Translations under genes and position numbers: made by a program
Assembly: GCA_030849065.1 (NCBI GenBank)
Contig: JASAON010001661.1
Location: 208,754 to 272,753 of the forward strand
Length of the DNA stretch: 64,000 bases
Source: Jaenimonas drosophilae
Taxonomy: Eukaryota; Euglenozoa; Kinetoplastea; Trypanosomatida; Trypanosomatidae
Direction of reading: 5' to 3'
Shown here: positions 5,800-49,989 of the stretch, in pieces
How the letters are laid out: every line of letters begins with the position of its first letter
How positions within the stretch are numbered: the stretch's first letter is position 1
The notes under the pieces: model-generated
What the model saw: only the letters and a program-made list of their open reading frames with translations
Databases searched by the model: none
Told to the model about the DNA's origin: nothing

Positions 5800-5811
5800 C
5801 TTGATGAGGGG

Positions 5812-30162: not shown

Positions 30163-33100
30163 ATGGAGCAGTCGGACGCTGAAAATGTGTACGGGTGGCA
30201 ACGTGAAGATGCAGCGGATTCAGAATACAGTTCCGACAGCTCCGATGACCTTGATATCAACAATGCTGGGCATCAGCAGGCAAATAGACAAGCGGATCAC
30301 TCTTATGTGCGGGAACCCACAAATCCACAGTTCTACAAATTCGCAGCTTCTACAGACATTCGTGCTCGCCAGAAGACTGGAGTCTGGCGAGCAGAATCTG
30401 AAGGAGTCGAGAAACAACATCTCAGAGATTTTGTGAAGTACAGTCGATATGACCTTCTCACCATATCGTGGCACCTTGCCTCAATTGACTACAAGACGCG
30501 AACCCACGCGCCATTTTTCCCCCTCCCAGTGATGCCAGAGGTTCTGCAAGGGCTCTCCGTTGATGCCGGTGATGTTGCAAAATTTATGTGTCTATCATCC
30601 AATGAACTTTACAGAAGGCACGAAAAACTGTCGCCTGAAACTCTGCGCTCACTACCGGTTCGAGCTGCTGCAGACATTAGTGCCGCATGTCGCTCTCAGA
30701 TCTCCGAAGCGCCAAAAGTGTTTGATGATAGCTCCTTGAACCCAAAATGGGAAGCTGATGTTAGCAGCGATGACGACTCAGAGGATGAAGGAGACGGTGA
30801 CGTGAAAGAGCTAGATTTCTGCATAGCAATGACTTCCATGACGTCTTCACAGTGCATCGAGATTCGTAGTATCAAACTCCTCAACGGCCTCGTGAACAGG
30901 TGCATCAAGAGCTCACGCTTTTTCACTTTGCATTGTTGGGGAATCAGCCGCATCACTCAGTCGTTACTCAGAATTATTGGAAAAGAGATGCAAAAGCCAT
31001 CGCCCGACGAAAAGCTTGTTGCAATGTCACTGACTTTGGCATACAAGCTTTCTGTAGGTTCCTGCAACATGAACGCGGTTTTGGCCCTTCTACGATGGAG
31101 TTTCCATAATCGCTCATGTGCGGAACGAATACTTCTTCCAGATGCAGGAGCCTTGTTCGACATGTTGAACTCACTGAATTCAAGCAGAGTGAAGTTACTT
31201 ATACCAAAGGGAGCTTCGAGGGGTCAAGTGATCTCGGTAGTGCACTCTCTTAACTCTAGTAACCAAGTGAGGGGGTTGTGTGCTGTTCAGGAGAAGAAAT
31301 GCAGCTACTGTGTGATGCTGACAGACAGTGGCGTCATGAAGATTGAGCTGAGACCTCCGTTTTCTGTAGTACTGGAGAACTCACACTACACGAAAGATGT
31401 GTGCTGTGGAATGTTCGTCGAAGGTTCCAATATTGCGGTCATTGGAGAGAGTGGAGTGGACTTTCTCAGTATCGACACCCTAGAGGTTGTCCGTTTTACA
31501 CAGTCTCCCGTCACCCCTGACAATGTCTTTTCCCTGTATGTGGGGGAAAATACCTTCAAGACACCCTATTTCTCGTGTGGAAGGTCAGGCAAAAAGCACC
31601 CGTACTTCAATGGAAACACTGTCTCTGGAACTGTCGAGTGCACCGCTCCGCTTCTAATTACCCGAGGGAGTGACTCACTGAGTGTTCAGTTCTTCATTCT
31701 TCCTGAGTATTCATTTTCATCTTCAGAATTGACTCTCCTGGCCCTTAAAGAGGGGGATAGGAATTGGCTTACTGTCACAATTGTGGGAGGTATTTCTGGC
31801 ACCATAAAGGTGGTGTTCAAGCATGGATTCGATTGCGTTGCTGAAATTGACGAAACGGTAGACTCTGGGTGGCTCCTCATTAGCGCCACAATGTCTTCCG
31901 TAAATGACACTGCGACGTGGACCACATACTGTAACGGGGTTCAGTGTTCTGCTCGTGGTCAGAGTGGGTCGTTGGTGAAACCATCTGGGGGGCTCACACT
32001 TACGTTACTGTCAGGGACGTTCCGAGGATTCATTTCCTCTTTACAAGTGTGGGACAAGGCGCAGCACATTGGGGATATGCGGCTTGTGGCAAGTGGTGGT
32101 GAGTCTTCCTCGTGGTGCTCTTTCCAGATGAACGAGGAAGCTGGGATTTCACTTCACTGTCGCCAATGCGGAGCCATGTGGAGAGGAAACTCACTTTTGT
32201 GGAAAAGCTCACCAAAGGAACTCCCCGCAAGGAGTAGCGTCTCTGTTATTCCGTGGAAGCCGCGAGGAGCATACTATATTCTCACCAACCAGTTTGAGAT
32301 TGCTGTAATAGAAAATGATGTGACAACATGGATTGCCCTCGATGGATCCGTAGTTGATCAGCAGGAGTCCTTTTTCCGGGCAAGTGACCTATGCTTCTAC
32401 TGTCCGTACAACGCCAACCTTTTGATGATGTGTCATGAAAGTCTGTGCATTCGTTATGTCATAACAGGTGGCCCTGCCACATCACTTATCAGAGATCTTC
32501 CCACTGTGATTAGCGCTGAGGTGGTGACTCAGAGTAGCGTAGACGGTGTATCGGCAGTGGATGTTGCTCTGTTTGTAACACGTCATCTGAACTCTTTAGT
32601 GTTGTTTGGTGATCACGGGAATTCTGAGAGGTCACTTGATGTGCTCTCGAGAGTTCGGACTGTGTCACTGAAAACAATAGGCCGACTACTCAGTGTTTGC
32701 CAGGAAATTGTGGATGGCTGTGGCGATAGATCAGTTCACAGTCTGGACGTGCTAATCCTGTGCTTCACTGGTCGGCTCCTTATCCGGCAGGTTAAACTGA
32801 TGGAACGCAGGTGCCCCAGCAAAGTTGTTCCGCAGGTGGATGCTGTCCTTCGCTTCATTCAGGAAGCTAAGGAGACAAATGGGGGTGTTCTGGACGAGGC
32901 AGAGAGCATCTTTTCAGAACTCCACAAGGTAGTTCTTGCAGAGTCAGTCAGTCACGACTACCAGATGAATCTAATTGTTGCATCAGCAGATTTTGCGGAA
33001 GTCGAGCAACTTCTCACACAGGAGAACCTTCCCGCGCTCGTGTCAGCGGTTATCAGAAAGGATATGAAAAAGTCATTTATGTCGTATCTTCATCGACTGA

Positions 33101-36100
33101 GAGACGCGTGCGGAACAGAAGCAACGGAGCTTCTGAGTGGCAAGCCCCACTCCTTTGATGCATCGAATGTTATGCTAACAACACTCACTGGTATGCTCCA
33201 GAACTGCCGGTCGTATTGGGCACTTGTTGCGGTGGCACTCCTCAACTCAATTAGTGAGAATATTCTACGTATCTTCGAGCACCATCTTCTCGGTTCAGAT
33301 GATCGAGCTTCAAGCCTCCAACTTCTGAAGCAAACAGCTATTGGTGTTGTGGTGTATCCTCTTGCACATTACTTCTTGGACATGGTGTTGGATCAGTCCG
33401 TTGCCGCAGATGTTCTCAAGCTTCTGCATGGAATGTTTAAGGTATTCTCTCTATGGACTGCTAGCCCCCAAGTGGGAGGAAAACCCTCAACGCAGCATTC
33501 TCTGGTCGAGACCTACTCTCTCGTAACATCTCCTCAGTCGCACTCAGCTCATGCAGCGTCCATTGATCTCAAGCACGCAAAGGGTATCAGGGTGGATGTT
33601 TCATTTTGTGAGCCTCCTGTGGGAGAAGTTCTTCTTGTCGCTTCATTGATTTGTGGCGACCTTCGCAGACTCTCCAAGAAGGTTGAGTGTGGTCAGACGG
33701 TATCTTTTGACTGTGGAGGAGAGCTGACAATTTCTTCAACCAATGGTAAGGGATATCCAAGTCTTTCCATCGTGATTCACGCAGAGGTGGAGCTTGTCAT
33801 CGAAACGGAACTGGATTGGCTTAGTGATATTTGTTGCTGTCTTCGCCGTGCCATCATTACCGGGGGATACGCATCACTCCTTAGCGCAGGTGAAGTGCAA
33901 CCAGCGTCGAGCATTCGACGAGACTCGATACACCGTGCCGGTCTGACGAATGCAGCGCTGTCCGACCAAAAATGTGATTCCTTGGTGGTTGACTATGGAG
34001 CTCTACCAACTGCACATTCACAACTCCTTGCCCTGGCGGAAGGGGATGATACATGTACACTCACGACCACTTGGAAAGAGGTGTACCGGGGTAAGAACAT
34101 TCCAAATAGAACTTCACTGGAATGTGTAGTCAAGTGGTGTGCATGTGCTATCGCCTGGCACTGCACAAAGCACCACGTCGCGACGGTGACTGATCTGAAA
34201 GAAGAGCTCAGTGTTGCGCTGGACCACATTAAGCGGCGTTTGTTCCTTCTCCTGGAAGCTCGACAACTCGGAAAGGAAGACGCGATCGTGGCCCGTGCGA
34301 GATACTTGCTTGTGAATATTCATTCACGCCAATTCATGGAAGCACAACTTTCTGCCGCTAACCCCACCGAAGAGCCGGTGGATACACGCCAGCCATGGGC
34401 TACAACCCGGAGCGCAAATCATTCGTCACGGCGGGCCCATTTCAGTAGTGGGGCCTGGAGTAGAAGGCATGAATCCATGGATTTGTCTACGTCCGCCAAT
34501 CGTCTCGGCTCGAGCTCGGCGTCGATGCGTTCTACTTTTCAGCGCAATCAGTCAGCCATTACTGCTGTGAGCATGTTCAAGAAGGGCATCGAGACGGCAG
34601 ATCCTCTGCCCAATCAGCTTACAACATTTCTCTTTACGTCTGAGGATACACCAGATGATCTCCAACTGGCGCTGCTTCAACGAACTCGACGCGCCGCGGA
34701 TACTGTGGAAACGTTTCGGCTCCTTGCAGAGCTTGCGAAATCCTGTGTATCCGGCAAGCATGATGATCTCTCTCTCCTCCTGGACTCCTACCTGCAGTAC
34801 CGCGTGGCCTTGGCTACCTCATCAGGATCTGCTGAGCAGGAAAAGGCGGCATTTAACTCGCACTACACCGATCACCTTGTCGGCTGCGGCCTCCTGCGAG
34901 AGTTGGAGCTGCAGCAGTCGGTTTGTGGCTTCGTCCAGGCAGCCCTGCGAGCGGTGCTACATCAGCTCCTCCACCCTCCGGAACTCCCACTAGTGGAATG
35001 TCTTCAGTTGTGCGCCGTTCTCTGCCATCCCTGGGATAGCGTAGACATCTCACTTCTCCGTCCATCAGACATGTTTCTCTTTCTGCAACACTGCCTCTCC
35101 TCCGCCTTTGCCATGCGGATAGACAGGATGGAGAAGTCCGACCGCGAAGCGACCTACGTGGAGCGCAAGGGCCTCTTCGACCTGGCTCTTCGGTGTCTTG
35201 TAATGCCTAACTCTGTACTTCCAATATCCACAGAAAACGCACGAGTGGTGGATGGAGACGTACAAGGAATTCACGTGGAGCATGGTACAGTTGTCTGCGT
35301 CACACGCAACCAGTGGAAGCCACTCAATGGGTGGGAGCAGCTTCCCGCACCACTCCAAGATGGTGATGCCTACGCCAACTTCGGTCTTCCGTGCATCGTG
35401 TCGCAGCTACCAGACGTTCAGTACTTTGAAATCACCATTGACCTCGTCGTGCGTGATCCCTTGGATGCCGCCATTGGCATCAGCGAGCTTCCTCTCCCCA
35501 CAACTGGACTGGGCGATGGAACCAACGCGATTTGGTTCGGCGCCGATGGGCGGGCAAGGTTTCCAGGTGGGTCGGACGTCTGGCTGAGCGAGCCGTGGCA
35601 AGTGGAAGATGTTATTGGCTGCGGAGTGTTTGCGCCACACAATAGCGTCTTCTTCACGCGGAATGGGGTCTTTCTGGGTATCGTCACACGTTGCTCCTAC
35701 GCCGTCCTCTCTCCCTTCATCAAGATCACCACGACCAAGTCGGTTGTGCGTGTGATTGTGAACTTTGGCCGGGAGCCCTTCAAGTTGGACCTGGCCACTC
35801 TCCACTGCTCGTGCCGGTACAAGTTCATGACGAGCTCCGTCGTCAGTGATGCGGTTGTTACCACAGTCTGTTATCTACTCTCCATGTGCCATCGCAACTT
35901 CATGTCCTCCGAGCCAATGGCCATTGTGCATCGTGATGCCATCAGCTCTCTATTGGAACACGCCGCCACGTTTCTCTCGAGCAGTATCCTCGAGCTGCTG
36001 AACATCCTCAACGTGAAGTTGGCCGATCCCGCTCACCCTCCGTCCGATATCACGGAGGAAGCCGCGCTGGAGCAGCAGAGAGATGAGCAGGAAGTGAAGG

Positions 36101-39100
36101 TTTCACTGACAGTGATGCTCTCGCGACTCTTCCACTGCCTGCGAGTGGCCATTGAGTGTCTGCACTACGATGCCGTCACACCGGCCACTCACAGTGAAAT
36201 GCTGCAGCTCTGCGCGTATGTGATGGTACACTCCCGTGAGGTGCACCTCAAGCTGCAAGCCGCTAAGTGTCTCATCTTGATGCGGGAGTTGATGTCACCG
36301 GAGAGTCTGCTTCGAGCAACGGAGAGGCTTGACCTCTTTGTCTCTGCCGAACGCGTGGTGGAGACGCTGGTCGAGCTCGCGCACATCAACATCTTTGCCG
36401 AGGACGAGTGCAAGGTGACCCTAGCTCGTTGGAGCGACGACACAACCATTGTCCGGGGAAAAAACAGCTTCTTTGGAGCAACCCCCATGCCCTCCACTGG
36501 AACCCACACTGTGGGATTCCGCTTCAAGAGAGCCATGGTGCGGACAAGTGGCAAGGGCTCCAACCTGGGTGGGTGCTACTACGTTGGTCTGTGCAGTGGT
36601 CAGCCTCGCATCACCAACATGCAGAGCGTGCTCAGTCGGAATGATATCTTTGTTCTGCAGGACTGTGATGACAAGGATCAGGTGGAGCATCTGGAACTCC
36701 GGCGCAATGCCATACCCTTGAACCTGCGTGGGCGTATCTACGGTCATGACGAGGTGGTGTGGGTGGAGTACAATGCCGACCTTGGTGAAATCACCTTCTT
36801 CCGTGAAAACGTCTGCCTCGGTGTTGGCTTTCGAAATGTGTTGCTGGGAGAAGACTTGTACCCGATGGTGTTCAGCTTCAACGATGACGCAACGTGTGAA
36901 ATCGTGGAGGCTCCTGGCAAAACGGAGGAGTCCCTTGTCAAGTGGATCTCCAAGCTCCACCGAAGCACTGCGATTCATGCCTTGCAGCATCTCCATCTCG
37001 TGCCCTTCTTCGCCCCGATCATTCAACGCATGATCACGCGTTCCATCGCGGGACTGGAACAGCAGTTCACGGAGTGTCTAATTGGACTGGCGACGTTGGG
37101 TAGTGAACGAAGCTACATGTACTGCCAACACAGTGCCTACGGTCTTGTGGTGGTGGAGATGGTATCTGACGTTACGGGCCTTGCTGTCGTGTACATTGCG
37201 GATGATCCGAGCAAGCACTTCTTCACCATTGAGCCGAACAAGCTCACCCCATACTTTGTCTGCCCACCCATCTACGCAGAAAGGGTACCAGTGGCCCACA
37301 GCTGCGCCAAGCTTCTCACCCACACGCTGCAGCACAGCCTTGTCGATGCCTCCTTCTTCTCTCCGCTGACGTTGGAGGAAGAAGAACGACGTGCCGCCAT
37401 CGAGGAGGAGTACCACAGCTCGCTCGATGAGTTAAGTACCTTGGATCTCCTCAGCCTCCTTCACGCCACGCATCAAGGGACACCACGTACACAAGACATG
37501 CCCTTGGCGAGTGATGACTTTGTGCGGGCACAGGCAAGCGTGGCCAATTCCATTCTTCAACGAACCCCTGTGATTGTGGAGCCGAAGTACTCCACCAAGA
37601 CCATCTTCTCGCCCCACCCCTCTATCGGGGTGGCCACAGCTCCTGGCCCAACCATCATCCGTGGAAATGCACTGGAGATGAGCGGTCGTGAGGAGCTCAC
37701 CTTTGCTGTCTCCCTCCCTCGTACGGGCGATCATGGGGACCTTCTCTATGTGGGCATCACCACCTCCACCTCCCGCTATCCAGACCAGCAACTCTCGGAA
37801 GTGGCGCACTGGGAAGACACCTGGGCCCTCTGCAGCAAGGACTCAAGCTCGACAAACAACACACATTGCTGTGTGGAGCCAACCATGATCTTCAATGGAG
37901 AGGAGACCCTCTTTTCAGCACAGGATGTACTGTTGCTACGTCTGCACAGCGAGGGATCGTTGGAGTTCTCCCGGCTTCGCGGTGGTCGGCGGGAGGACTT
38001 TGGGGTGTTATTTGAGAATATACCGCTTCATCATGCGGTGATGGATTCCGACGAGGAGGAGGACGAAGAAGCGGTGGTCTTCCGGCCCTTCATTGCCTGC
38101 GGTGAGGGAACCTACGCGGTGTGGTCCTTCATGGATGCATTCATCTTCCCTGCACGCATGACGGTGTCACCGAGCAGTCTAGACAACCTTGTGGAGGGCT
38201 CTGTTCAGTGTGGTGTGTGCGGCTCCCCGTTGGGGACCTCCTGGTACGTCAACCACCGCACTACCCTATGCAACAGCTGCTTCATCATGTGGCAGCAACC
38301 GTTGGAAACTTTCTGCCGGATGGATCCTCAGGATGCTTCCATGAGTCTTCGGTACCTCGTCTCACCGCACAAGCCAAAGGAGCTTCTCCTTGGCCACTAT
38401 GTGGAGTTCGAGGAGTCCCCAATGCTTAGTTGGTCCCCCGAAAAGAGCGTCAACATGACTACGATGGGTGGCTGCTGCCTCGCCACTCGAGACGAGTGCA
38501 TTGCGGTGACGGAGTCCTTCTCCTCCACGGGGCAGACTCGGGTGGATCTGCTTCTGCACTATGTTGCTGGTGCTGCTGGCTTCCCCTTTGGAGGCCTCCT
38601 GCCTTTCAGTCCTCTCTGGCGCCAAGGGGGCAACACCACCTCTCACATTGACTTGGCTGCAAATGACGTGCGCGTCAGCACCTCGGTCATCCCACCAGGG
38701 ACGAAGGCCTTCTTCACGTTGCAGATACGTGAGGTGGCCGACACTACCAGCGTCGGTGAGACCACGGAAATCCGCGATCTCTTCTTGGGTCTCACCAACA
38801 ACACCAGCGTGTCAGCGGCGGCGGAACAGACCGTCGGAAGTGGCTGTCGCTCAACGGTGGAGCGGCTTCGGATGGAGGGCAGCTTGTGGGGGCTGTGGTG
38901 CGACAAGATCATCAGTCCCGATGGCCGCATTCTGGTGCTGATCGACACCCTCCACGGACGACTCAGCTTGAGCTCGTCCATGGTTGGTCTGCGACATGCA
39001 CCCACGGTCCTCACCTTCTCCGTCAATCCTGGCGAGCCCCTCCACATTCTTCTCTCCTCTTCCGAAGCCTGCCGCCTCACCGCTTGGGAGGGCTTCATCT

Positions 39101-42100
39101 CAGGAGAGGAGCGCACGGTGCCGAGCTTCGTTCCCATCGCTGTTGGCCTACTTCCCGATGACTTTGACTCTTGGAGTGGAAACGCGCTCGAGGGGGCGGT
39201 CCTGCTGGCCGACACCGTCGCCCACACGAAGGCCATGAGCCCAACACCGTGGGTCTTTGCCGAGGGGGTGACCCCGTCGCAGTCGCTCTTCCGCATGGGG
39301 GACCCCATCACCCTCATCCAGGATGGCGCCGAAGTGAGGTGCTACTGCCGCGGCCTCCCCATCGCCTCCACGACCCTCTCCCCCTGCCAAGTCGCTAGCC
39401 GCCATCGTGTTGTGGTGTCCCTCTCGGTGCAGGGTCTCTGTGCGACGGTGGTGCCGCCGCTGTGGGGGCGGGCTCGGGTCGGGCGCATCCAACGGGTGTG
39501 CAGCCCCGAGGTCTGCCTGGTGGAGTGCCCCTTGGAGGAGGAGGAGAAGAGGGAGAAGAAGATGGTCGCCAGAGGCCCCCGACTAATCCCTGTGCGGCGG
39601 CGCAATGTGCGCTACTGCGTCGTCGCCGCCACCTACGCCCCGTCCTTCCCTGAAGGCCTTCCCGTGGTATACAAGATTCGATGGATGCCACCCAAGCGTG
39701 GCGTACTGGCCTCAGTCCAGCCCCACTGCTTCGGCGTCCAAGACGTCCACTGTGTCGTCTCCGTCCAGCCCGAGTGCTGCTTCATCGCCGACAATGAAGA
39801 CTGCACGGCGTCGGTGCAAGCTGAACGCCCGTCTGTGGTCCCACCACGCGACACCGTCTCTCGAATCTTTGAGGTTGGCAAATTGCGCTACCGAATGCAG
39901 GGAAAGCGCTCATTCAACGGCATCATGTTCGATTGTCGGGCCAACACCCCCATCACTCTGACTGGTCTCCTCATCATGAGCCAAACCGCAGGGCGGCACC
40001 GCGTGGATGTCTTCTACAAGAAGGATTCTCACATTGGCTTTGAGCACAACGCCAACGCGTGGACTATCATCTACTCCGGGGACGTTGACATGAACCCCGA
40101 CACCTTCTACCCAGTCATCTTCCCCCCCGTTGGAATAGAGGCCATGAGCTCCTTCGCCCTCTACCTCAACACCTCACACAACTGCGGGGTTGGCTTCTAC
40201 GCCGACGAGGACAGCTGCACCGGTGCGGTGGGGACGGAGCTCGACACCGATGGCGTCCTCACCGTCTACATGGGCAAACCCAGCAGCTCATCCAACGACT
40301 TCATGGACATATCCACCCCTGCTCGTGGGTTCCTTGGGACAATCCTGTACGAGCACCACAGCACAGCACCGGTTCCTGCACCATCGCCTTCCTCCGGGCC
40401 GGCGTTGACCGCCCCCATTCGAAGCTCTATGGGCGCATTGTCGTCGTCCTCGTCGTCCGGAAGACGTGGCAACACGGCATCTCTTCCCCTCCGTGGAGAA
40501 CGCTTCATCCTCTCCAGTCGTCCCTTGCGTACTGCCACTGCCCCATCGATTAGCTTTGAGATGGAGGTCCTCCCCCCGTCCCTGCACCTCTCCGCGCTCT
40601 CGCTACCAATCCTTCTTCCTCCCACTACGGGTGGACCAGTCGGGGTGCAGCATGCCCTGCTCTCCGTGTCGCTTGCCTCAGGCAGCGTCAAGGGGGGTGC
40701 GGGGGGCAAGGGGAGCCCCGCATGGGTCTGGAGGTCTCGCGAGCTCCTCACCCACCCTACGACAGCAGTCCAGCTTCCCTTGGATTTGTGCCTTCGACAG
40801 GGTCGGTACATCCTCTCTGCCACCGTCCACCCCATCCGAAGCGAGGATGAGGAGGGCACCGAACCCTCCTCACCCCAAGACATCCCACTCATGCTGCACG
40901 CGGTGGATGGAGTCAGCTTCTGCCGTCGCAACCACGTCGTGGCCGTCTACGGCTTTGTTGGGGATCTGCGTCTGGAGATGGAGGCACTGCCCGTGTCGAG
41001 TCTCTTGCGGACAATGACGACGGGGGCCACCCTCAACCAAGGCAACGCCGCGTCCTACAACGGCATCATGTTCGACCTCTGTAGCAAGGTGGAGCTCACC
41101 ATTGAGCGGATGCTCTTTGTGTCGCAGACCTCAGCAGACATGGTCCTCGTCCGCCTCTATTGGAAAGAGGGAAGTATGCGAGGGGCGGAGAACTCGCCCA
41201 CGGAGTGGCGCGAGGTTACCGCCTCCTACATCAATCTCGTGGACAGGCAGCACTACAGCCCCGGCCCACTATCTCTGCACATGAAGCCGGGGCGACGCTA
41301 CTCGGTCTATCTCAACACCACCTCCAGCTGCGGGGTGCGCTTCTTCAATAGCTCCGACGGCTTCTCGCAGGCTGTGGGGGAGGAGTTCGAGAGCGACGGC
41401 ATCCTGACCTTGTTCGTGGGCAAAAAGTGCGAATCATCGACGCCCTTCGCCCAGATCCCAGACGAAGCCCGTGCGTTCCGTGGAAAGGTGGAGTACCGCA
41501 CCTACACCCCCCACACCGACATCCCCACCAACCAAGCCATCTTCAGCTGCCCCAGTGCCTTTGTCGTGACGCGGCTCCTTGTGGCACTCTACGCCTACGT
41601 CAACGCCACAGAGGATGGGGTAGTTAGTCCAGAGGAAGACGAGGAAGGTGGATTCGCCTACCGACAGCTGCTCGACGCCCTCGCCCCGTTGGCGACGGCA
41701 CCCCTCACGCGGGTTGAGCCCGCACTCAGCATGAATGCCATTGAGAACGCCACCTTCCAGCTCATGGACGAGCTGAGCGTCAACGAGGAGGAGGACAACT
41801 GCTTCTCCCTGAGCATGCGTCCTCGGGCAGAAGTTGGGGAAGCTGCCTCGACCTTCAGTAGCGGCGATCTGGCCATCCTCGTCGAGGAGAATCTGCAGGA
41901 TGCTTCTTTGGTGCGGCTGTGCTCGGACGCCAGGCCGGACGGAACCATTTTCGTCCAGACGGACAAGAGTGAGGAGACCATAGCGGTGGTGGAGCGGCGC
42001 CTGCTGCCCATTGCCCGATGCTTGCATTGTGATGGGGTTTACGCGGCAGAGCCCTCTTCATGCCCACACCACCGCCCGCCCGCGACGGAGGAGGCGCGCA

Positions 42101-45100
42101 TTGAGGCCATCCTCTCCCGACGCATTGCCAACACATTTGCCGTGGCACCATCCGAGGCGGCGGCCCTCGCAACGGCCCTCTTTGACGGCGACTCCACCTC
42201 CGTGCGTCCGGCCTTTACCTCGGTGGAGGAGCTGCGGGCGCTGCAGCGTCCCGAGCACCGCGAGGTGGTCGTCGTGAGGCGGCAATCGCGTGAGCATAGT
42301 CGCAACACAGCTACAGAAGAGAAGGAGGAAGTGGCGGAGATTCGGTTCCAGGTACCATCGTACCTCCTTCTTCCTGAAGGTGTGGTGGGGCCGGAGGACG
42401 GACTCTTGTGCCCGATGGCCTTCCACCCGACCCTGCAGGCTGCCTTTTCCCTCTACCTCCGCCCGCATCGTGATGGGGTGGAGATGTTCTTCATCACCGA
42501 CCTCCCAGAGCGGTGGCGGAAAGAGGAGGCGCAGCGGTCCAGTGCGGGTAAAGTGGCAGCGTCGCGGGAGGCATGCTTCCATCTGCATCCGTACCTCGTC
42601 ATGGAGGATGGGGTGACGACGGAGCCCCTCTCACCCACTCCTTTTGTGTTTCTCGCCAGCTCTGCAGGCCGTTCGTTGCTCTTCCTCCTGACCTGCGCCC
42701 CGCCCTACCGCGGCACCAGCGGGACAACCATTGAGATTGGTCTCTTCATCACCGCCGCCCCGCTTCCCGCCATCACGAGCCCTGCCGGCACCTCCAGCGC
42801 GCCGCGTTGGGGCTGGGAGAGCGGCAGTGTGTCAGAGGCACTGAGCCCGAGAAGCCCAGCCTTTCTGGATGGCACCTTTGGTGGGGAGGCGTGGCCACGA
42901 TCGAAGCCCCGTACCTGCGCCTTCGTCGCCATGTGTCTTGACAAGAAGGACACAACCCTCTTCCTGGAGCTCGTCGTTGTGCGTGCATCCAACACCCATG
43001 GCAGCTCGTCATCCTCCAAGTCGGTTGATTGTCGGGCACGTTTCAATGTGCTAAGTGGAGAGGTCGTGAGCATCTTCTTCGCCCCAGATGGAGATGTCCT
43101 TGTCTACGATGCTGACGACGTGGTGCGCTGCCACTTGTCGGAGCGTGAGATGCGTAGTGCCCAACAACACCGCTACCGCCTCGGCATTCTCTGCCTGGAG
43201 CCCACCACCCGTGTGGTGGCGCAGCTCGATCTTCCAGAGCCCTCCTTCCGGGGCTGGCGAGGCACTCCCACGGCAGAGGCCGGGCGTCGTGCCGATGCCT
43301 ACATCCCCTCCTGGCAACGCCACGACCCTCAGCACATTTGCATCAGTCGCCAAGGTCTCACAGCGCGCTTCCTGCTGGACGGCAGGACCCTGATTGGTGG
43401 CCAGGTGGTGCTCGGCAACCCGCTCCCCTCCACTGGTGTGTCGGCCTTCATCATGCAGATTGACCGCCGCGACCGCAAGCCGGGCACCTCACTCGGCTCC
43501 GGCCACTTCGCAGGCATCGCGGTCGCCTCCTTCTCCCGGCCCGCGCCGAGCTACGGCTACTTCAAGGGAACGGTGGATCAGGTGTGGGTCGTGCAGGACA
43601 TCCAGGACAGCGACTCGATGCCCAACCAGGCGGAGCTCCCGCCCCTCCACATGGAGGGAAGCAACCCGATCCTCTTCTCTGCCGGGACGAAGCTCCGCTT
43701 CACCGTTGACCGACCACGCCGCACCCTATCCCTTGCCCGCGACGATGAATCGCCACGAGTGATATTTTCCGACCTGCCGCCGGACGTGGTTGTCTGTCCT
43801 TTTGTGCGTCTTGACAACAGCTACAGCTCCGCCACCCTCTCCCGCTGCACCCCCCACGCCCTCCTACCTTCCTCCTCATCGGCCAACCGGCTCGACCCGC
43901 ATGCCCTGCCCATCACCCGCTCCCACCTCCGACGTCGTCCGCTCGCTGTCGTCATGAAGCTGTTTCCGGTGATGCGAGCACTCGTGCAGTCGCTCCCCTC
44001 CGCCCACGCCGCACGCCTGCTGGAGCGCTGGACCGACTCCCACCTCTACACCCGCTTCGACTACCGCGCCTCCACCGCCATGGACCGCATGATTGAGCTC
44101 GGCGCCTTCGAGGCAAAGATGATGTCATGCGATGATGAAGAGTGTGCCAAGTTCCTGCAGAACCCCGACATGCGGCTAGTGCTGGACTCCCTCGTTTCCC
44201 CACCCACGGCGACGATGGCCGTCTTCCCATGCCTCTCCGCCGGCCAGCAGCGGGCCTACTTCGAGCTCCCAGCCGAGTACGAGCTCCTTCACCGACTTCC
44301 CGACGCCAACATGGCGCGCCTGCTCTATCTGGACCCCATCAAGGGCCCTGTGGAGCGGAGTCTCTGCCTCGTGGAGTGGGGGCCCACAGAGCGCACGACC
44401 TTGGGTCTGCGACCTGCCAACGAGGTCCTTCCTCATCCCGGTGTGGTACAGGAACGACTGGTGCTTCGACCCCTCAACGATGCACACGCCTGTGCCATTG
44501 TCATTGATGGTTGGTACGACACTACTCTCGAACAGCTCGGGAGGGAGCTCCGCGTCCACGAGGCCAAGAAGGTGGCCTCCACCATCATTTGTGCCTTGGA
44601 GCACTGGCACCTCCACCGGCAGTGTCATGGCCACTTCCATGCCAACAATGTTCTTCTCCGCGTGGTGCATGGCGAGGTCGTCGCGTCGTGTCTGTGGCGA
44701 ATGCATCTCGGCCAGACTGTGACGCATCTAAACCCCGCATTATTGGAAGGTGCCCCACCTCATCCGCGTAGCTTGCAGAAGGATCTCTGCGATTGCGCAG
44801 CTCTGTTGCGGACCTTTCCCGCCCTTCTGGAGCAGGATGCGCACATGCAGCAATTCACGGACTTCGTTGTTGATGGAGTGAGTATCACCGACGCCATACG
44901 CGAGAGCGAGCTGCTCCAGAATGATCCCGAATCCGAAGACTCCCCGACACTCTCGCTACAGTCCGGTCTCAATCATCGTGGCGGCTCGGGCTCCTACCAT
45001 GGCATCATGTTCGACCTCGTCGCCAAGAACGTGAGCGTGCGAATCACGGCCATCCACTTCATGAGCGACTACAACGGAACGGCAACGGTGCGGCTGTACG

Positions 45101-48100
45101 CACGCCGTGGAACCTTCCTCGGGGCTGAAACCGATGCCTCGCAGTGGCACAAAGTCTTCGAGCACGACATGCAGCTCTCGTCAACTGCGGAGACGATTGT
45201 GACGGGCTTCCCCTCCGTCGTCATTCCGAGTGGGGATCGTGCCGGCTTCTTCCTGCACACCACCAACGGCAGCGGGGTCCTCTTCTTCTCCGAGTCGGAT
45301 GGCATCAAGGCTGGGACAGGTCAAGTGGAGTCGGAAAACGCCGATTTGGGCATCACCGTGGGCAAGAAGAGCGAGAACAGCGTTCCCTTCAGCTACATCA
45401 AGGCCGACAAGCGTCTTTTGCGCGGGACGATTGCCTACTCCTTGTTGATGTGTGGCCATGCCCCACGTAGCTCACTGGTGTACTCGAGCAAGGAAGTCTT
45501 CGACGGTCGCGAGCTACCCACCCCACCACCCACGCCCGACCCGCGCGTCGTTCCCATCACGTGGACGCGAAAGGAGGAGGCGGAAGCCCTCGGCTCCCAC
45601 ACATCGGAGAGCTACGCTCTGGTGCTCGACGGCTGCGAGGGCGATTCCTTGCAGCTTCGCATCGCCGAAGACCTCTCCTTCCGCATGGAGCCTCATCGCA
45701 CTGCCCACGTCCCACCCGACAATGGTGTGGTCCAGGCGTGGAATGCCGTCGAGGCCGCCGCCTTTAGCACAAAACTGGAAGGGTTGCGCCAACGGTATCA
45801 GCAATCGATCCTGGCCGGCTGCCAGCCACCCAACACGGAACGTGGAGAGCACGAGGCTCTCCGTTGGATGCGAAGCGGTGCCGACACGTCGCTCGCTGAT
45901 CCCTTATTGGGCGAGGGCGAGTGGTGGCGATCAACCCCCCTTACCACCTCCTCCACCATCTCTCTCTGGGCCGGCGAAGGCCACAAGATCCACCTCCGAC
46001 TGCGCCAATCGTCGGCGGAAGGTGAAGAAGTGCTGCTCGACCTCGGCGATGCCGCCGACCATGTGTGGTTCCTCGACTTGGAGTTGGGCTGCATCATGTT
46101 TCCGGATGGAGATAGTGTGCAGCACCCGAGTGGCTGTTTGCGCTTCCGCTGCCTCCCTGGCACTGGACCCGTCAGCGTCGAGATCCGCCTCGCTGATAGC
46201 TCCCGTGAGCATCCTCGCCACGCCAACATCAAGATTCCTCTGTGGAGCTACGTCCTGGCCCAGCCACCGCTGCCCCCGCGGAGCGTCTGTGCCGTGCTGC
46301 GGGCGTGCGATCCAGAAAACCTATTGTGGCCTCGACCGGTGCTGCACATGGAAGAGCCCTCCTCCTCGCCGAGCAGTTCATGTACCACCGACGTCACCAC
46401 CACCACCTCCTTCCGCAGCCCCTTTCTCGTGCACGTGCGCTCCATTGGCGAAGGTGGCTCAGGTGGGCGGAGGGGCTCCTCCGCCTCCACCCCACGCGGT
46501 GTGTCATCGGCCCCATCGTGGAAGCGTGTGCCGTGGGTGTCGTTGAGCAGCAGCTCCTCTGAGGTGGAAGTGGTGGGACAAGTGGCCCAACAAACGGTGT
46601 TTCGACTGAAGCCGTCGCAGTGTCGGGTGGTGCATCCGCGGGTGGTGGATAGTGATCGGAGTGTCGTGACATTGCGTCTCGTCTTCCGTCGCACCCACCC
46701 CATCAAGCTACAGCTTGAAGCGGCCAACTTCAGCCTAGCCCTCCCCCTCTACGCCATGTGCTCCGTGTTTGAGGAGTGCTTCACGGAGAGCGACATGATG
46801 GATGTGATGGTGCAGCTATACTTTGATCTCGCCGGGCGTTCCATCATGGTGCACAACCTCGGTTCTGGGGCGGTGTGTGAGGTGGCCTTCCCTGGTCGTG
46901 AGTGCCCCACACAGCTCCAGCTCACGGCCAACTTCCACTACCCCGGCTCGTGGGTGGAGGTGCTGTCGTGGTGGCAGTCGGAACGTCCACAGGAGGTTTC
47001 GATTGGCGCACAAGCCCTGCGTACAGCGTGCATGGCGCTCTCTCTGCCTTCCTTCACCTCCAACGTCTCACCCACGGTTGGTACCATTCTGCGCCATACC
47101 TACCGGCCCGAGGAAACGTCGCAGGATGGCGAGGCGCACTCGGCCGCCAAGATGGGTGGCCTCATGGTGGGCTATGCACGGCTCTTGTTGGAGTCGGCCA
47201 TCCTCTCCCACAACCAGGCACGTCGCGCCGCCAACCGCTCCCTCCATCGCTATCTCGCCTGCACCTCTTCCAGCAGCAGCGCCAAGCTGGCTGTGGTGGT
47301 GTTTCACGAACTACAGAACGGCTCACTGGAGCTCATTGCCCAGTCCTGCGCGTACCTCTTGCGCCCCCCGCTCCTGCAATCCACTGCCGGGGTTGATGCC
47401 AGCGTGCATACCATTGCCGCCGCACTCGACTACCCCGTTGTGCGCCAGCTACTCCAACACACCGTCTTTGGGCCCTCTCTTACCGTCTCACTCATCCACA
47501 CCGCGACGGTGGGCACACGTGGTACACGGCACACGGCGATGCTCTGCGCGCGCAAGATTCTTTCCCAGGAGCCCATCGCCCTGCCCCCACAGGGGCTCCT
47601 CATAGCCCACTTGGCGCCGCTGCTCCGCATGGTTGGCGGGCTCTGCCGCCGTGAACGCCTATCCTCGATGGTGGTGCAGATTGGCATCACTATGGTGGCC
47701 GATCTCATCCAACGCGGGCACACCGATTTGTGTGACGCACGACGCGGCCACCTCCTGACGGCCAACATTCCCTACCACACCGTGGTGTGCACGCGACGCC
47801 TCATTCGCGCCATTCTTGCCGACCCCCCAACCCCGCTGCCCGCCGCCTTGGTGCGCCACAGCAAAGCCCCGCTGGCTATCTCCTGCGCCGTCACCCACAT
47901 TGGCTCCGCCGGGGCCTACGGCCTCATCCCCGCCCTCTGTACCTACCAAGAGCTCCACGCCAAGAAGTGGGTCGGCACCCTCTCCATGGAGGTTGAGCTG
48001 CGTGAGGCAAGACGCGGGGTCGTGGTAGTTGGCTGGAACTCCCAACGACGCTCGCATCGCATACTGGAGCTCGGCAACCCGCAGGAGGTCTTTGCCAGTG

Positions 48101-49989
48101 GCTTCCAGAGCTACTTCCCAACCTGTGGCTACTACATCATGGCGGATGGATGGCTGTTTTTGTGCAATGAGGGGAAACGAAGTGACAAGCGCAGTGGGGT
48201 GAGTCTGCTTCCGGGTGATCGAGTACGCATATGCTGCTCCATCGCGGAGAGCTCTGTACGCTTGACTGTCGTGCGTGGTCGTTTGCCCGTCATCAGCACC
48301 AACTTCCACCTGGATGATGGCGTGGGTCTCCCCTTCTTCTCTGCCCAGCACCTCCCCGACGTAAGCTCAGAGTTTCAGCAAGTCGTCTCCACACGAACGG
48401 TCAACCTACAAAAGATGTACGCCGACTTGATGGAGGACCCCACCTCGATGGATGTGCTCCCCGCACAGTCCTTCGACTTCTTCACGGAACTCAACGTCTT
48501 CCATCGCCAGCTTCTTGCTGAGAAGCACATTGACCTTGGCGCCAACCCAGACTACCGCGTCCCAATTCACTTCATCGCCCCGTTTCCTCTGCTCGCCACC
48601 TGTGTGGAGGCTGGCTTTGGGGAGGATGTTGGCCTACAAGCACTCGTGCCGTACAGCCGTCGTTTGCAGCTCTTCGACTCCGTCACGGCTGCGCTCGCGC
48701 CGATGGTCAATCTCGAAAAGGAGATGGAGCCACTCGAGCTCTTCCGCATCCTGAAGAACCTCTGCTCCACCGAGACGGAGGAAAGCATCCAGGCGGCGGT
48801 GTTGCAGCCATTTCAGAAGCTCACAAGCCGCAAAGGCCACGTCACCATTCACCCTCCACGCACCAACACGGCGGGGATGAGCCCCCAACAGGTCTTTCTG
48901 CGGTCAGTGTACGGTCAGGTTTACGTGCAGCTCCATCAAACCCCGCGCGACATCTTCTACGCCTCGCCCATCTTCCAAGTTAAATTTGCTGGCTTCGCCT
49001 CCACCGACGCAGGAGGGCCCTACCGCGACCTCCTCTCGCAGCTCGCGACGGAGATCATGTCACCACACCCGAGTCAGCAATTCCAGCTCAACCCGCTCTT
49101 CGCCCCCTGCGTACGTGGAGAGGCGGCCCACATCATGCCCAACGCCACGCTGCTCGGGAGCGAACAAATGTGTCTCGCCCTGGAGTTTTTCGGCAAGCTG
49201 CTCGCCTCTTTCTTCATCTCAACGGACGTCCTCGCCGTGAAGTTTCCATCCATTTTTTGGAAGCTGCTTCTTGGCGAGCGCTGCACCATCAAGGACTTGG
49301 CCGCGCTGGATGCTAACGCCGTTCGCCATCTTGACCCGGCGGAGCTGATGGAGCGCACCGAGGAGGAGCTGGAAGAATTTGTGCCTGGAATATCCGACAT
49401 GTGGAGTGAGCTGCTCCGCAATCACAGCCACGGGGAGATGCCCGCCGAGGAGGAGGACGCCTCTCTCCCGCCACGTACCCTCGCTGGTGCCAGCCTCCTC
49501 TCCGCGCGCATCGTCAAGGGTGAGATACTTAAATTTTCCCAAGCCATGAACTACATCCGCCAAGGATTTGATGAAGTGATTGCGCTGCACACGCTGCAGG
49601 CCTTCCGGTGGCAAAAGGTGGAGCTCCTCATTTGCGGCACACCCAAGCTGTCGGTGGAGGCCTTCCTCGGTGAGTGCGATGTGGAGCTCCCCGACACCAC
49701 CTCGACCATGTTCAGGAGCTTTCTCGCCGCCATCACCGATGATGATCGCGGGCTCCTCCTGCGCTTCACAACGGGCCAGAGTCGGTTGCCCATCAAGACG
49801 CGCATGAAGGTGGTCCACCTCGACGGCATCAACTGCCTCCCGACCAGCGCAACGTGCTTCTCCACGCTGCGGATTCCGTCCTACTCCACCCTGGACCACA
49901 TGACGGAACGTGTTCTATACGCCATCCGCCACTGCAAGGCCATTGATGCCGATGGTCAGCCCGTCGAAAACTTGATGCTTGACTTCTAA
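30163..49989 (+). CDS. Giant HECT-type E3 ubiquitin ligase, 6608 aa
   Basis: One uninterrupted 19.8 kb frame. N-terminal helical region with an acidic patch, then a LamG/concanavalin-like beta sandwich (about 450-650). SPRY-like modules are read at about 1750-1885, 2085-2250, 2490-2655 and near 5890-6060; a CGVCG/LCNSC zinc-ribbon or ZZ-like pair lies near 2680-2710 and a CLHCDGVY/CPHH pair near 3947-3965. Three copies of a 150-residue module anchored on NGIMFD or HGIMFD occur at about 3251-3400, 3632-3785 and 4945-5095. Directly before the third copy, residues 4700-4910 resemble a protein kinase with HGHFHANN (4822-4829) in the catalytic-loop position. The C-terminal HECT domain (about 6237-6608) has FASTDAGGPYRDLL, the NYIRQGFDEVI helix and the catalytic motif LPTSATCFSTLRIPSY, with Cys6565. 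HERC1/HECTD-type giants are the nearest architecture. Base composition is clearly lower in GC before about 34.7 kb than after 39 kb. Confidence 0.93.
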   Translation: MEQSDAENVYGWQREDAADSEYSSDSSDDLDINNAGHQQANRQADHSYVREPTNPQFYKFAASTDIRARQKTGVWRAESEGVEKQHLRDFVKYSRYDLLTISWHLASIDYKTRTHAPFFPLPVMPEVLQGLSVDAGDVAKFMCLSSNELYRRHEKLSPETLRSLPVRAAADISAACRSQISEAPKVFDDSSLNPKWEADVSSDDDSEDEGDGDVKELDFCIAMTSMTSSQCIEIRSIKLLNGLVNRCIKSSRFFTLHCWGISRITQSLLRIIGKEMQKPSPDEKLVAMSLTLAYKLSVGSCNMNAVLALLRWSFHNRSCAERILLPDAGALFDMLNSLNSSRVKLLIPKGASRGQVISVVHSLNSSNQVRGLCAVQEKKCSYCVMLTDSGVMKIELRPPFSVVLENSHYTKDVCCGMFVEGSNIAVIGESGVDFLSIDTLEVVRFTQSPVTPDNVFSLYVGENTFKTPYFSCGRSGKKHPYFNGNTVSGTVECTAPLLITRGSDSLSVQFFILPEYSFSSSELTLLALKEGDRNWLTVTIVGGISGTIKVVFKHGFDCVAEIDETVDSGWLLISATMSSVNDTATWTTYCNGVQCSARGQSGSLVKPSGGLTLTLLSGTFRGFISSLQVWDKAQHIGDMRLVASGGESSSWCSFQMNEEAGISLHCRQCGAMWRGNSLLWKSSPKELPARSSVSVIPWKPRGAYYILTNQFEIAVIENDVTTWIALDGSVVDQQESFFRASDLCFYCPYNANLLMMCHESLCIRYVITGGPATSLIRDLPTVISAEVVTQSSVDGVSAVDVALFVTRHLNSLVLFGDHGNSERSLDVLSRVRTVSLKTIGRLLSVCQEIVDGCGDRSVHSLDVLILCFTGRLLIRQVKLMERRCPSKVVPQVDAVLRFIQEAKETNGGVLDEAESIFSELHKVVLAESVSHDYQMNLIVASADFAEVEQLLTQENLPALVSAVIRKDMKKSFMSYLHRLRDACGTEATELLSGKPHSFDASNVMLTTLTGMLQNCRSYWALVAVALLNSISENILRIFEHHLLGSDDRASSLQLLKQTAIGVVVYPLAHYFLDMVLDQSVAADVLKLLHGMFKVFSLWTASPQVGGKPSTQHSLVETYSLVTSPQSHSAHAASIDLKHAKGIRVDVSFCEPPVGEVLLVASLICGDLRRLSKKVECGQTVSFDCGGELTISSTNGKGYPSLSIVIHAEVELVIETELDWLSDICCCLRRAIITGGYASLLSAGEVQPASSIRRDSIHRAGLTNAALSDQKCDSLVVDYGALPTAHSQLLALAEGDDTCTLTTTWKEVYRGKNIPNRTSLECVVKWCACAIAWHCTKHHVATVTDLKEELSVALDHIKRRLFLLLEARQLGKEDAIVARARYLLVNIHSRQFMEAQLSAANPTEEPVDTRQPWATTRSANHSSRRAHFSSGAWSRRHESMDLSTSANRLGSSSASMRSTFQRNQSAITAVSMFKKGIETADPLPNQLTTFLFTSEDTPDDLQLALLQRTRRAADTVETFRLLAELAKSCVSGKHDDLSLLLDSYLQYRVALATSSGSAEQEKAAFNSHYTDHLVGCGLLRELELQQSVCGFVQAALRAVLHQLLHPPELPLVECLQLCAVLCHPWDSVDISLLRPSDMFLFLQHCLSSAFAMRIDRMEKSDREATYVERKGLFDLALRCLVMPNSVLPISTENARVVDGDVQGIHVEHGTVVCVTRNQWKPLNGWEQLPAPLQDGDAYANFGLPCIVSQLPDVQYFEITIDLVVRDPLDAAIGISELPLPTTGLGDGTNAIWFGADGRARFPGGSDVWLSEPWQVEDVIGCGVFAPHNSVFFTRNGVFLGIVTRCSYAVLSPFIKITTTKSVVRVIVNFGREPFKLDLATLHCSCRYKFMTSSVVSDAVVTTVCYLLSMCHRNFMSSEPMAIVHRDAISSLLEHAATFLSSSILELLNILNVKLADPAHPPSDITEEAALEQQRDEQEVKVSLTVMLSRLFHCLRVAIECLHYDAVTPATHSEMLQLCAYVMVHSREVHLKLQAAKCLILMRELMSPESLLRATERLDLFVSAERVVETLVELAHINIFAEDECKVTLARWSDDTTIVRGKNSFFGATPMPSTGTHTVGFRFKRAMVRTSGKGSNLGGCYYVGLCSGQPRITNMQSVLSRNDIFVLQDCDDKDQVEHLELRRNAIPLNLRGRIYGHDEVVWVEYNADLGEITFFRENVCLGVGFRNVLLGEDLYPMVFSFNDDATCEIVEAPGKTEESLVKWISKLHRSTAIHALQHLHLVPFFAPIIQRMITRSIAGLEQQFTECLIGLATLGSERSYMYCQHSAYGLVVVEMVSDVTGLAVVYIADDPSKHFFTIEPNKLTPYFVCPPIYAERVPVAHSCAKLLTHTLQHSLVDASFFSPLTLEEEERRAAIEEEYHSSLDELSTLDLLSLLHATHQGTPRTQDMPLASDDFVRAQASVANSILQRTPVIVEPKYSTKTIFSPHPSIGVATAPGPTIIRGNALEMSGREELTFAVSLPRTGDHGDLLYVGITTSTSRYPDQQLSEVAHWEDTWALCSKDSSSTNNTHCCVEPTMIFNGEETLFSAQDVLLLRLHSEGSLEFSRLRGGRREDFGVLFENIPLHHAVMDSDEEEDEEAVVFRPFIACGEGTYAVWSFMDAFIFPARMTVSPSSLDNLVEGSVQCGVCGSPLGTSWYVNHRTTLCNSCFIMWQQPLETFCRMDPQDASMSLRYLVSPHKPKELLLGHYVEFEESPMLSWSPEKSVNMTTMGGCCLATRDECIAVTESFSSTGQTRVDLLLHYVAGAAGFPFGGLLPFSPLWRQGGNTTSHIDLAANDVRVSTSVIPPGTKAFFTLQIREVADTTSVGETTEIRDLFLGLTNNTSVSAAAEQTVGSGCRSTVERLRMEGSLWGLWCDKIISPDGRILVLIDTLHGRLSLSSSMVGLRHAPTVLTFSVNPGEPLHILLSSSEACRLTAWEGFISGEERTVPSFVPIAVGLLPDDFDSWSGNALEGAVLLADTVAHTKAMSPTPWVFAEGVTPSQSLFRMGDPITLIQDGAEVRCYCRGLPIASTTLSPCQVASRHRVVVSLSVQGLCATVVPPLWGRARVGRIQRVCSPEVCLVECPLEEEEKREKKMVARGPRLIPVRRRNVRYCVVAATYAPSFPEGLPVVYKIRWMPPKRGVLASVQPHCFGVQDVHCVVSVQPECCFIADNEDCTASVQAERPSVVPPRDTVSRIFEVGKLRYRMQGKRSFNGIMFDCRANTPITLTGLLIMSQTAGRHRVDVFYKKDSHIGFEHNANAWTIIYSGDVDMNPDTFYPVIFPPVGIEAMSSFALYLNTSHNCGVGFYADEDSCTGAVGTELDTDGVLTVYMGKPSSSSNDFMDISTPARGFLGTILYEHHSTAPVPAPSPSSGPALTAPIRSSMGALSSSSSSGRRGNTASLPLRGERFILSSRPLRTATAPSISFEMEVLPPSLHLSALSLPILLPPTTGGPVGVQHALLSVSLASGSVKGGAGGKGSPAWVWRSRELLTHPTTAVQLPLDLCLRQGRYILSATVHPIRSEDEEGTEPSSPQDIPLMLHAVDGVSFCRRNHVVAVYGFVGDLRLEMEALPVSSLLRTMTTGATLNQGNAASYNGIMFDLCSKVELTIERMLFVSQTSADMVLVRLYWKEGSMRGAENSPTEWREVTASYINLVDRQHYSPGPLSLHMKPGRRYSVYLNTTSSCGVRFFNSSDGFSQAVGEEFESDGILTLFVGKKCESSTPFAQIPDEARAFRGKVEYRTYTPHTDIPTNQAIFSCPSAFVVTRLLVALYAYVNATEDGVVSPEEDEEGGFAYRQLLDALAPLATAPLTRVEPALSMNAIENATFQLMDELSVNEEEDNCFSLSMRPRAEVGEAASTFSSGDLAILVEENLQDASLVRLCSDARPDGTIFVQTDKSEETIAVVERRLLPIARCLHCDGVYAAEPSSCPHHRPPATEEARIEAILSRRIANTFAVAPSEAAALATALFDGDSTSVRPAFTSVEELRALQRPEHREVVVVRRQSREHSRNTATEEKEEVAEIRFQVPSYLLLPEGVVGPEDGLLCPMAFHPTLQAAFSLYLRPHRDGVEMFFITDLPERWRKEEAQRSSAGKVAASREACFHLHPYLVMEDGVTTEPLSPTPFVFLASSAGRSLLFLLTCAPPYRGTSGTTIEIGLFITAAPLPAITSPAGTSSAPRWGWESGSVSEALSPRSPAFLDGTFGGEAWPRSKPRTCAFVAMCLDKKDTTLFLELVVVRASNTHGSSSSSKSVDCRARFNVLSGEVVSIFFAPDGDVLVYDADDVVRCHLSEREMRSAQQHRYRLGILCLEPTTRVVAQLDLPEPSFRGWRGTPTAEAGRRADAYIPSWQRHDPQHICISRQGLTARFLLDGRTLIGGQVVLGNPLPSTGVSAFIMQIDRRDRKPGTSLGSGHFAGIAVASFSRPAPSYGYFKGTVDQVWVVQDIQDSDSMPNQAELPPLHMEGSNPILFSAGTKLRFTVDRPRRTLSLARDDESPRVIFSDLPPDVVVCPFVRLDNSYSSATLSRCTPHALLPSSSSANRLDPHALPITRSHLRRRPLAVVMKLFPVMRALVQSLPSAHAARLLERWTDSHLYTRFDYRASTAMDRMIELGAFEAKMMSCDDEECAKFLQNPDMRLVLDSLVSPPTATMAVFPCLSAGQQRAYFELPAEYELLHRLPDANMARLLYLDPIKGPVERSLCLVEWGPTERTTLGLRPANEVLPHPGVVQERLVLRPLNDAHACAIVIDGWYDTTLEQLGRELRVHEAKKVASTIICALEHWHLHRQCHGHFHANNVLLRVVHGEVVASCLWRMHLGQTVTHLNPALLEGAPPHPRSLQKDLCDCAALLRTFPALLEQDAHMQQFTDFVVDGVSITDAIRESELLQNDPESEDSPTLSLQSGLNHRGGSGSYHGIMFDLVAKNVSVRITAIHFMSDYNGTATVRLYARRGTFLGAETDASQWHKVFEHDMQLSSTAETIVTGFPSVVIPSGDRAGFFLHTTNGSGVLFFSESDGIKAGTGQVESENADLGITVGKKSENSVPFSYIKADKRLLRGTIAYSLLMCGHAPRSSLVYSSKEVFDGRELPTPPPTPDPRVVPITWTRKEEAEALGSHTSESYALVLDGCEGDSLQLRIAEDLSFRMEPHRTAHVPPDNGVVQAWNAVEAAAFSTKLEGLRQRYQQSILAGCQPPNTERGEHEALRWMRSGADTSLADPLLGEGEWWRSTPLTTSSTISLWAGEGHKIHLRLRQSSAEGEEVLLDLGDAADHVWFLDLELGCIMFPDGDSVQHPSGCLRFRCLPGTGPVSVEIRLADSSREHPRHANIKIPLWSYVLAQPPLPPRSVCAVLRACDPENLLWPRPVLHMEEPSSSPSSSCTTDVTTTTSFRSPFLVHVRSIGEGGSGGRRGSSASTPRGVSSAPSWKRVPWVSLSSSSSEVEVVGQVAQQTVFRLKPSQCRVVHPRVVDSDRSVVTLRLVFRRTHPIKLQLEAANFSLALPLYAMCSVFEECFTESDMMDVMVQLYFDLAGRSIMVHNLGSGAVCEVAFPGRECPTQLQLTANFHYPGSWVEVLSWWQSERPQEVSIGAQALRTACMALSLPSFTSNVSPTVGTILRHTYRPEETSQDGEAHSAAKMGGLMVGYARLLLESAILSHNQARRAANRSLHRYLACTSSSSSAKLAVVVFHELQNGSLELIAQSCAYLLRPPLLQSTAGVDASVHTIAAALDYPVVRQLLQHTVFGPSLTVSLIHTATVGTRGTRHTAMLCARKILSQEPIALPPQGLLIAHLAPLLRMVGGLCRRERLSSMVVQIGITMVADLIQRGHTDLCDARRGHLLTANIPYHTVVCTRRLIRAILADPPTPLPAALVRHSKAPLAISCAVTHIGSAGAYGLIPALCTYQELHAKKWVGTLSMEVELREARRGVVVVGWNSQRRSHRILELGNPQEVFASGFQSYFPTCGYYIMADGWLFLCNEGKRSDKRSGVSLLPGDRVRICCSIAESSVRLTVVRGRLPVISTNFHLDDGVGLPFFSAQHLPDVSSEFQQVVSTRTVNLQKMYADLMEDPTSMDVLPAQSFDFFTELNVFHRQLLAEKHIDLGANPDYRVPIHFIAPFPLLATCVEAGFGEDVGLQALVPYSRRLQLFDSVTAALAPMVNLEKEMEPLELFRILKNLCSTETEESIQAAVLQPFQKLTSRKGHVTIHPPRTNTAGMSPQQVFLRSVYGQVYVQLHQTPRDIFYASPIFQVKFAGFASTDAGGPYRDLLSQLATEIMSPHPSQQFQLNPLFAPCVRGEAAHIMPNATLLGSEQMCLALEFFGKLLASFFISTDVLAVKFPSIFWKLLLGERCTIKDLAALDANAVRHLDPAELMERTEEELEEFVPGISDMWSELLRNHSHGEMPAEEEDASLPPRTLAGASLLSARIVKGEILKFSQAMNYIRQGFDEVIALHTLQAFRWQKVELLICGTPKLSVEAFLGECDVELPDTTSTMFRSFLAAITDDDRGLLLRFTTGQSRLPIKTRMKVVHLDGINCLPTSATCFSTLRIPSYSTLDHMTERVLYAIRHCKAIDADGQPVENLMLDF

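Follow-up and report, generated by a model that had tools for sequence, protein, structure and literature searches.

The PHR E3 ubiquitin ligases (MYCBP2, Highwire and RPM-1) combine PHR domains with RCC1-like and RING-type ones, and MYCBP2 is a RING-type ligase. Ligases of the HERC/HECTD type have a C-terminal HECT domain and a long N-terminal region, and we know of no PHR-fold module or pseudokinase among their parts. For trypanosomatids, the accessible text of one study gives Leishmania HECT ligases of up to 733 kDa (PMC7647121), and a list of Trypanosoma cruzi HECT proteins, consulted in part, spans 162 to 4423 amino acids and includes Laminin G3 and SPRY among its domains (PMC5976635). 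Here we describe a giant HECT ligase gene in a 64,000-nucleotide stretch of the Jaenimonas drosophilae genome (the window; contig JASAON010001661.1, positions 208,754 to 272,753, from an assembly totalling 18.8 Mb). The ligase has the C-terminal HECT domain, long N-terminal region and SPRY domain also found in HERC/HECTD ligases, and additionally holds a predicted pseudokinase and three copies of a module that is related to bacterial modules by sequence and, in the copy modelled, to PHR domains by predicted fold. Its parts are individually of known kinds, while the domain combination, the unclassified module family and the bacterial link are new within the Pfam, NCBIfam and literature searches made.

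In the open reading frame (ORF) listing of the window, one uninterrupted forward-strand frame (30163-49989) codes for 6608 amino acids. This protein was scanned against Pfam in two pieces, residues 1-4500 and 4501-6608, with matches listed up to E 10, and only SPRY and the C-terminal HECT domain rise above the Pfam cut-offs. The HECT match (PF00632, E 1e-36) scores 127.6 bits against a cut-off of 23.9, and an assembly-wide search with the HECT profile marks the same place. A C-lobe cysteine, putatively catalytic, is aligned in all 14 rows of an alignment of the window protein with 13 orthologues, and the protein thus has the features of a HECT E3 ligase. The SPRY profile (PF00622) matches two stretches of residues 1-4500 with E 6.5e-12; the first scanned alone gives E 1.7e-8, and the second alone stays at 23.1 bits, under the cut-off of 26.3. 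The same scan up to E 10 contained neither the RCC1-like and RING-type set of the PHR E3 ligases nor an RCC1, DOC or other part that would distinguish HERC/HECTD ligases. The features are listed below and delimit the domains in what is probably the recognition part of a ligase conserved among trypanosomatids.

30163..49989, + strand: giant HECT ubiquitin ligase gene, one 6608-residue open frame, 13 orthologues
35422..35748, + strand: SPRY domain 1, residues 1754-1862 (PF00622)
36571..36882, + strand: SPRY-like domain 2, residues ~2137-2240 (PF00622, E 8.1e-5)
39856..40362, + strand: module 1, residues 3232-3400 (pairwise homology; 14/14 rows)
40978..41508, + strand: module 2, residues 3606-3782 (homology, 14/14 rows; modelled as a PHR-like beta-sandwich)
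44227..44931, + strand: predicted pseudokinase domain, residues 4689-4923 (fold, Pfam match in an orthologue, lost Asp)
44944..45453, + strand: module 3, residues 4928-5097 (pairwise homology; 14/14 rows)
49162..49938, + strand: HECT domain, residues 6334-6592 (PF00632, E 1e-36)
49855..49857, + strand: putative catalytic cysteine C6565 of the HECT domain (aligned Cys, 14/14 rows)

The initial annotation of the window had placed three copies of a module, anchored on NGIMFD or HGIMFD at F3251, Y3632 and Y4945, inside a HECT ligase. All three modules are real and lie at these places in the same frame as the HECT domain, with GIMFD occurring three times, at residues 3253, 3634 and 4947. The conserved tryptophan that had been noted about 50 residues on sits 47-48 residues past the G of GIMFD in every copy, and the G-V-x-F-F/Y segment reads GVGFY, GVRFF and GVLFF in copies 1, 2 and 3. 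Only the ending, given earlier as R-x-F-x-G-x-I/V-x-Y, has to be relaxed: R...G-x-I/V-x-Y is common to all copies, but copy 3 has R-L-L in place of R-x-F. The three segments of ~150 residues align along their length, with single BLASTP comparisons giving 32% identity for modules 1 and 2 (E 3e-27), 28% for modules 1 and 3 (E 5e-18) and 35% for modules 2 and 3 (E 2e-27). The modules had no match in Pfam or NCBIfam in listings up to E 10, from which the HMMER filters remove most matches above about E 0.1, and the absence of a Pfam match rules out a component of known ligases that Pfam already catalogues as standard.

The 13 orthologues (E <= 0.001) come from a search with residues 3220-5100 against 5.8 billion proteins, in which only the 859 candidates with the most shared words were scored; they include Leishmania (4), Leptomonas, Novymonas, T. 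cruzi, T. theileri and T. grayi. Whether Trypanosoma and Leishmania keep the modules had been left as a check, and all three are kept in 13/13 orthologues. Loosened GIMFD, W, GV-x-F-Y and R...G-x-I-x-Y motifs were recovered for each module in 14/14 rows, and the shorter records P0002 (3652 residues), P0006 (4950) and P0013 (4289) still span the modules. Mean pairwise identity among the rows is 64.1% for module 1, 74.0% for module 2 and 66.6% for module 3, while the HECT domain has 67.5%, the kinase-like domain 49.2% and the linkers 44-46%. The module values resemble that of HECT and exceed those of the linkers, and the modules are constrained about as strongly as the catalytic domain. The 13 orthologue rows obtained from the 859 scored candidates include none labelled T. 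brucei, and a loss of the ligase in African trypanosomes is possible.

Module matches occur at four places in the J. drosophilae genome: the three in the ligase and a fourth copy at the C-terminal end of a 1232-residue protein on contig C204 (L027:1394-5092). This protein also has coiled-coil-like, low-complexity and leucine-rich-repeat-like parts, the last with matches under the cut-off. Its module groups with module 2 on a long branch, and a protein search with it yielded none at E <= 1 among 264 candidates. The HECT profile matches 15 places across the assembly, and the module search hit no HECT gene there besides the ligase.

The relatives of the module found at the sequence level are bacterial. 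A trypanosomatid profile (A2) built from 20 of the 42 module rows of the 14 proteins (7 of module 1, 6 of module 2 and 7 of module 3; A5 takes 8 of the 14 rows) retrieved a single protein from 661 candidates at E <= 10, P0015, which at 298 residues consists of two modules in tandem (E 1.7e-12). Patterns derived from P0015 led to 14 bacterial loci (L009-L022), all from metagenome-assembled genomes (MAGs), and by title nine of the 14 are Planctomycetota, with Myxococcales, Ulvibacter, Verrucomicrobiales, Bacteroidetes and an uncultured bacterium making up the others. The trypanosomatid hidden Markov model alone recognizes 10/14 loci at i-E <= 0.001 among 520 frame segments, with L022 reaching this level via two partial matches and L016 (0.0059), L019 (0.0038), L020 (0.031) and L021 (0.65) missing it. 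A bacterial profile (A6) was assembled from 12 copies at 11/14 loci; L020-L022, the second of the L019 copies and the other frame at L014 did not enter it. In a one-to-one comparison the trypanosomatid and bacterial profiles align over 144 columns at full length (Prob 99.3, E 7.8e-21), and the single copy families align with the bacterial profile at E 5.7e-14, 2.4e-14 and 5.2e-17. As controls, 100 column-shuffled bacterial profiles gave a best E of 0.043 (Prob 1.2) and the reversed profile 0.19; when the ligase was divided into 76 blocks, the ten best all overlap the modules and the next scores 0.065. These controls, together with the pairwise E values, rule out a chance resemblance. Trypanosomatid and bacterial modules share the G-x-M-F-D, G-x-E, W, P-F and R..x-G-x-I-x-Y positions, but the trypanosomatid copies have a longer stretch past the GV-x-F segment. 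Other searches gave no further relatives: PDB sequences produced no match to module 1 or A2 and three to A6 (best E 0.43, judged chance), tblastn of module 2 against plasmids and phages reached best E values of 4 and 1, and none of 48 pattern-fitting stretches in viral contigs was confirmed with A2.

Some of the bacterial carriers are clearly, to judge from their sorting signals, of an exported kind. For example, L011 has a type IX secretion system (T9SS) sorting tail (E 3.6e-15) and L012 a PEP-CTERM signal (TIGR02595, 16.3 bits against a cut-off of 16), while L009 has cadherin-like repeats. The N-terminus of the ligase, judged by eye, is a charged and polar stretch that lacks a hydrophobic leader. 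The initial annotation had pointed to a module of secreted proteins from Bacteroidetes-like bacteria, and the exported bacterial relatives bear this out. The taxonomic label is too narrow, because nine of the 14 loci are planctomycetal and the module is more frequent in a survey of that phylum: at E <= 1e-8 it occurs in 27/199 genomes of Planctomycetota, the phylum of L013 (two seeds included), and in 2/198 genomes of Bacteroidota, the phylum of the Ulvibacter locus L011 (seed genome included). In each of two planctomycete MAGs, those of L014 and L019, the bacterial profile finds 20 matches at E <= 0.001, partial ones counted. Profile homology shows that the ligase modules and the module of these exported proteins belong to one family over their full length.

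The same initial annotation had also named the PHR domain of MYCBP2 as a possible fold relative, and the predicted structure of copy 2 agrees with this. The model is confident (predicted local distance difference test 94.1) and its best structural matches are PHR domains, at 5-11% identity; with a second aligner two non-PHR proteins tie with them, and CBM6, CBM35 and carbohydrate esterases rank lower. Module 2 is therefore, as the model shows it, a PHR-like beta-sandwich. Both leads hold, the bacterial one by sequence profile and the PHR one by fold, and a module family of exported bacterial proteins that no Pfam or NCBIfam model matched is in this way tied to the PHR fold. There are differences from the PHR domain proper (PF08005, found in MYCBP2 and BTBD2): its profile produced no match up to E 10 on the three modules, nor on P0015 or three bacterial module proteins, and the modules reside in a HECT enzyme while MYCBP2 is of the RING type. 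A PF08005 search of the J. drosophilae genome was empty, as was its control, and hence shows no absence.

Directly ahead of module 3, which begins at residue 4928, lies a kinase-like domain (residues ~4689-4923), as had been described. PF00069 recognizes the corresponding stretch in orthologue P0014 (E 9.6e-16), and fold comparison assigns a protein-kinase fold. HGH replaces HRD from residue 4822 (DNA 44626); the column of the HRD aspartate has H in 13/14 rows and N in the remaining one, and no conserved DFG was seen in the aligned rows displayed. A live kinase is judged unlikely, the catalytic aspartate being missing in 14/14 rows. With a kinase fold and lost catalytic residues, the domain is a predicted pseudokinase, which is what the initial annotation had called it.

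We consider it probable that this protein is a trypanosomatid HECT-type E3 ligase in which PHR-like modules serve recognition, the pseudokinase acts as a scaffold or switch and the HECT domain transfers ubiquitin. The modules and the pseudokinase are most likely its recognition and scaffold part. The modules would be protein-interaction surfaces that select substrates or position the ligase in the cell, by analogy with the PHR1 domain in RPM-1, and the pseudokinase adjoining module 3 may provide a scaffold or regulatory switch. SPRY domains, PHR-fold modules and pseudokinase would together hold partners, and the HECT domain would pass ubiquitin to a bound partner via the putative catalytic C6565.

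A phenotype may already exist for this ligase. The L. donovani orthologue P0010 is named HECT11, and the L. mexicana orthologue P0008 has a computed mass of 732.6 kDa, close to the 733 kDa at which the HECT range in PMC7647121 ends; this supports, but does not prove, that it is L. mexicana HECT11. Weighing against this identity, the accessible text of PMC7647121 comments on how large HECT3 is (18.6 kbp) and makes no such comment about HECT11, although P0008 needs 19.9 kbp. Nulls of hect11 in L. mexicana are reported there to lose fitness as axenic amastigotes and to show at least a 20-fold drop in fitness between metacyclics and the 3-week footpad in mice (PMC7647121). If the ligase is HECT11, Leishmania needs it for normal growth in mice. 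The terms SPRY, PHR and pseudokinase have no occurrence in the main text of PMC7647121, PHR was not found by a search of the T. cruzi HECT domain list in the available part of PMC5976635, and the modules are undescribed in the accessible text of these two papers, PMC11285970 and PMC4806438 or in related literature, subscription papers mostly excepted.

How the module entered the ligase was addressed with an unrooted tree of 35 copies, in which trypanosomatids are the only eukaryotes. One 100/100 branch separates 14 bacterial-type copies (12 from MAGs, two from P0015) from 21 trypanosomatid copies. Modules 1 and 2 each group by position across the included lineages and module 3 nearly does so (two label changes), and from this grouping homology indicates that the modules tripled inside the ligase gene before the sampled lineages split. 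Since the tree is unrooted and other eukaryotes are absent from it, it does not separate bacterial transfer from older common descent. There is a substantial chance, though somewhat short of even, that the module has long belonged to a beta-sandwich superfamily including PHR and was inherited vertically in this lineage, with the bacterial copies as ancient cousins and no transfer. Animal PHR domains as best fold matches, a long branch between bacterial-type and trypanosomatid copies (1.46 + 1.02 changes per column around the midpoint root), a direction of transfer that an unrooted tree leaves undecided and the exclusively MAG-derived bacterial loci are all in keeping with this history. It is opposed by the bacterial nature of the sequence relatives, by the lack of any PF08005 match on the modules, P0015 or three bacterial proteins and by the long-protein search, which gave only ligase orthologues (13 of 859 scored candidates); that search, like the others, was word-based and length-limited, and so other eukaryotic carriers are possible. 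Vertical inheritance concerns origin and is compatible with the recognition role proposed above. Only tentatively do we suggest the more far-reaching history, that a trypanosomatid ancestor acquired a bacterial cell-surface module that was tripled in a HECT ligase beside a dying kinase domain, giving rise to a second class of giant PHR-type ligase, independent of and parallel to animal MYCBP2/Highwire, that Leishmania would need for normal growth in the mammalian host. The locus is a candidate for an extracellular module of bacteria that works inside a eukaryotic ubiquitin ligase.

With regard to what the modules do, it is improbable that they are structural spacers that stiffen a large scaffold while the SPRY domains bind substrate. 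The most conserved 150-residue stretch of the protein is indeed SPRY-like (residues 2101-2250, window 36463-36912; 76.3% on 12/14 rows, as P0002 and P0013 lack this block), but for these 12 rows module 2 comes close behind at 75.7%, and modules 1 and 3 (66.8% and 69.9%) are on a par with HECT (69.2%). Additionally, every copy retains position-specific sequence across lineages, which goes beyond the needs of a spacer. Least likely of all is that the modules bind a sugar or small ligand as a CBM-like sensor within the ligase, which the lower-ranked CBM and esterase fold matches and the surface-sorting signals of L011 and L012 would favor.

Several minor features of the ligase gene and its surroundings were also observed. 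Window 38209-38922 encodes CxxC pairs (residues 2683 and 2703) accompanied by a GATA zinc-finger match and, further along, a DUF2911 match; neither match is accepted as a certain domain (E 0.0015, 18.6 bits against a cut-off of 26.8, and best E 0.00031, 21.1 bits against 27, respectively). A weak Laminin_G_3 (concanavalin-like) match at 31600-32262 is likewise under its cut-off (E 0.019). In 4-kb steps, G+C is 62.5-62.7% over the module region (40001-48000) and 48.5-58.8% elsewhere. The largest ORFs of the window lie on the reverse strand up to 29421 and on the forward strand from 30163 to 53670. Strand-switch regions between divergent gene clusters are a feature of kinetoplastids, and 29421-30163 is perhaps such a region. 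The gene downstream of the ligase (50122-53670) is one that we take, by its translation, to be kinesin-like.

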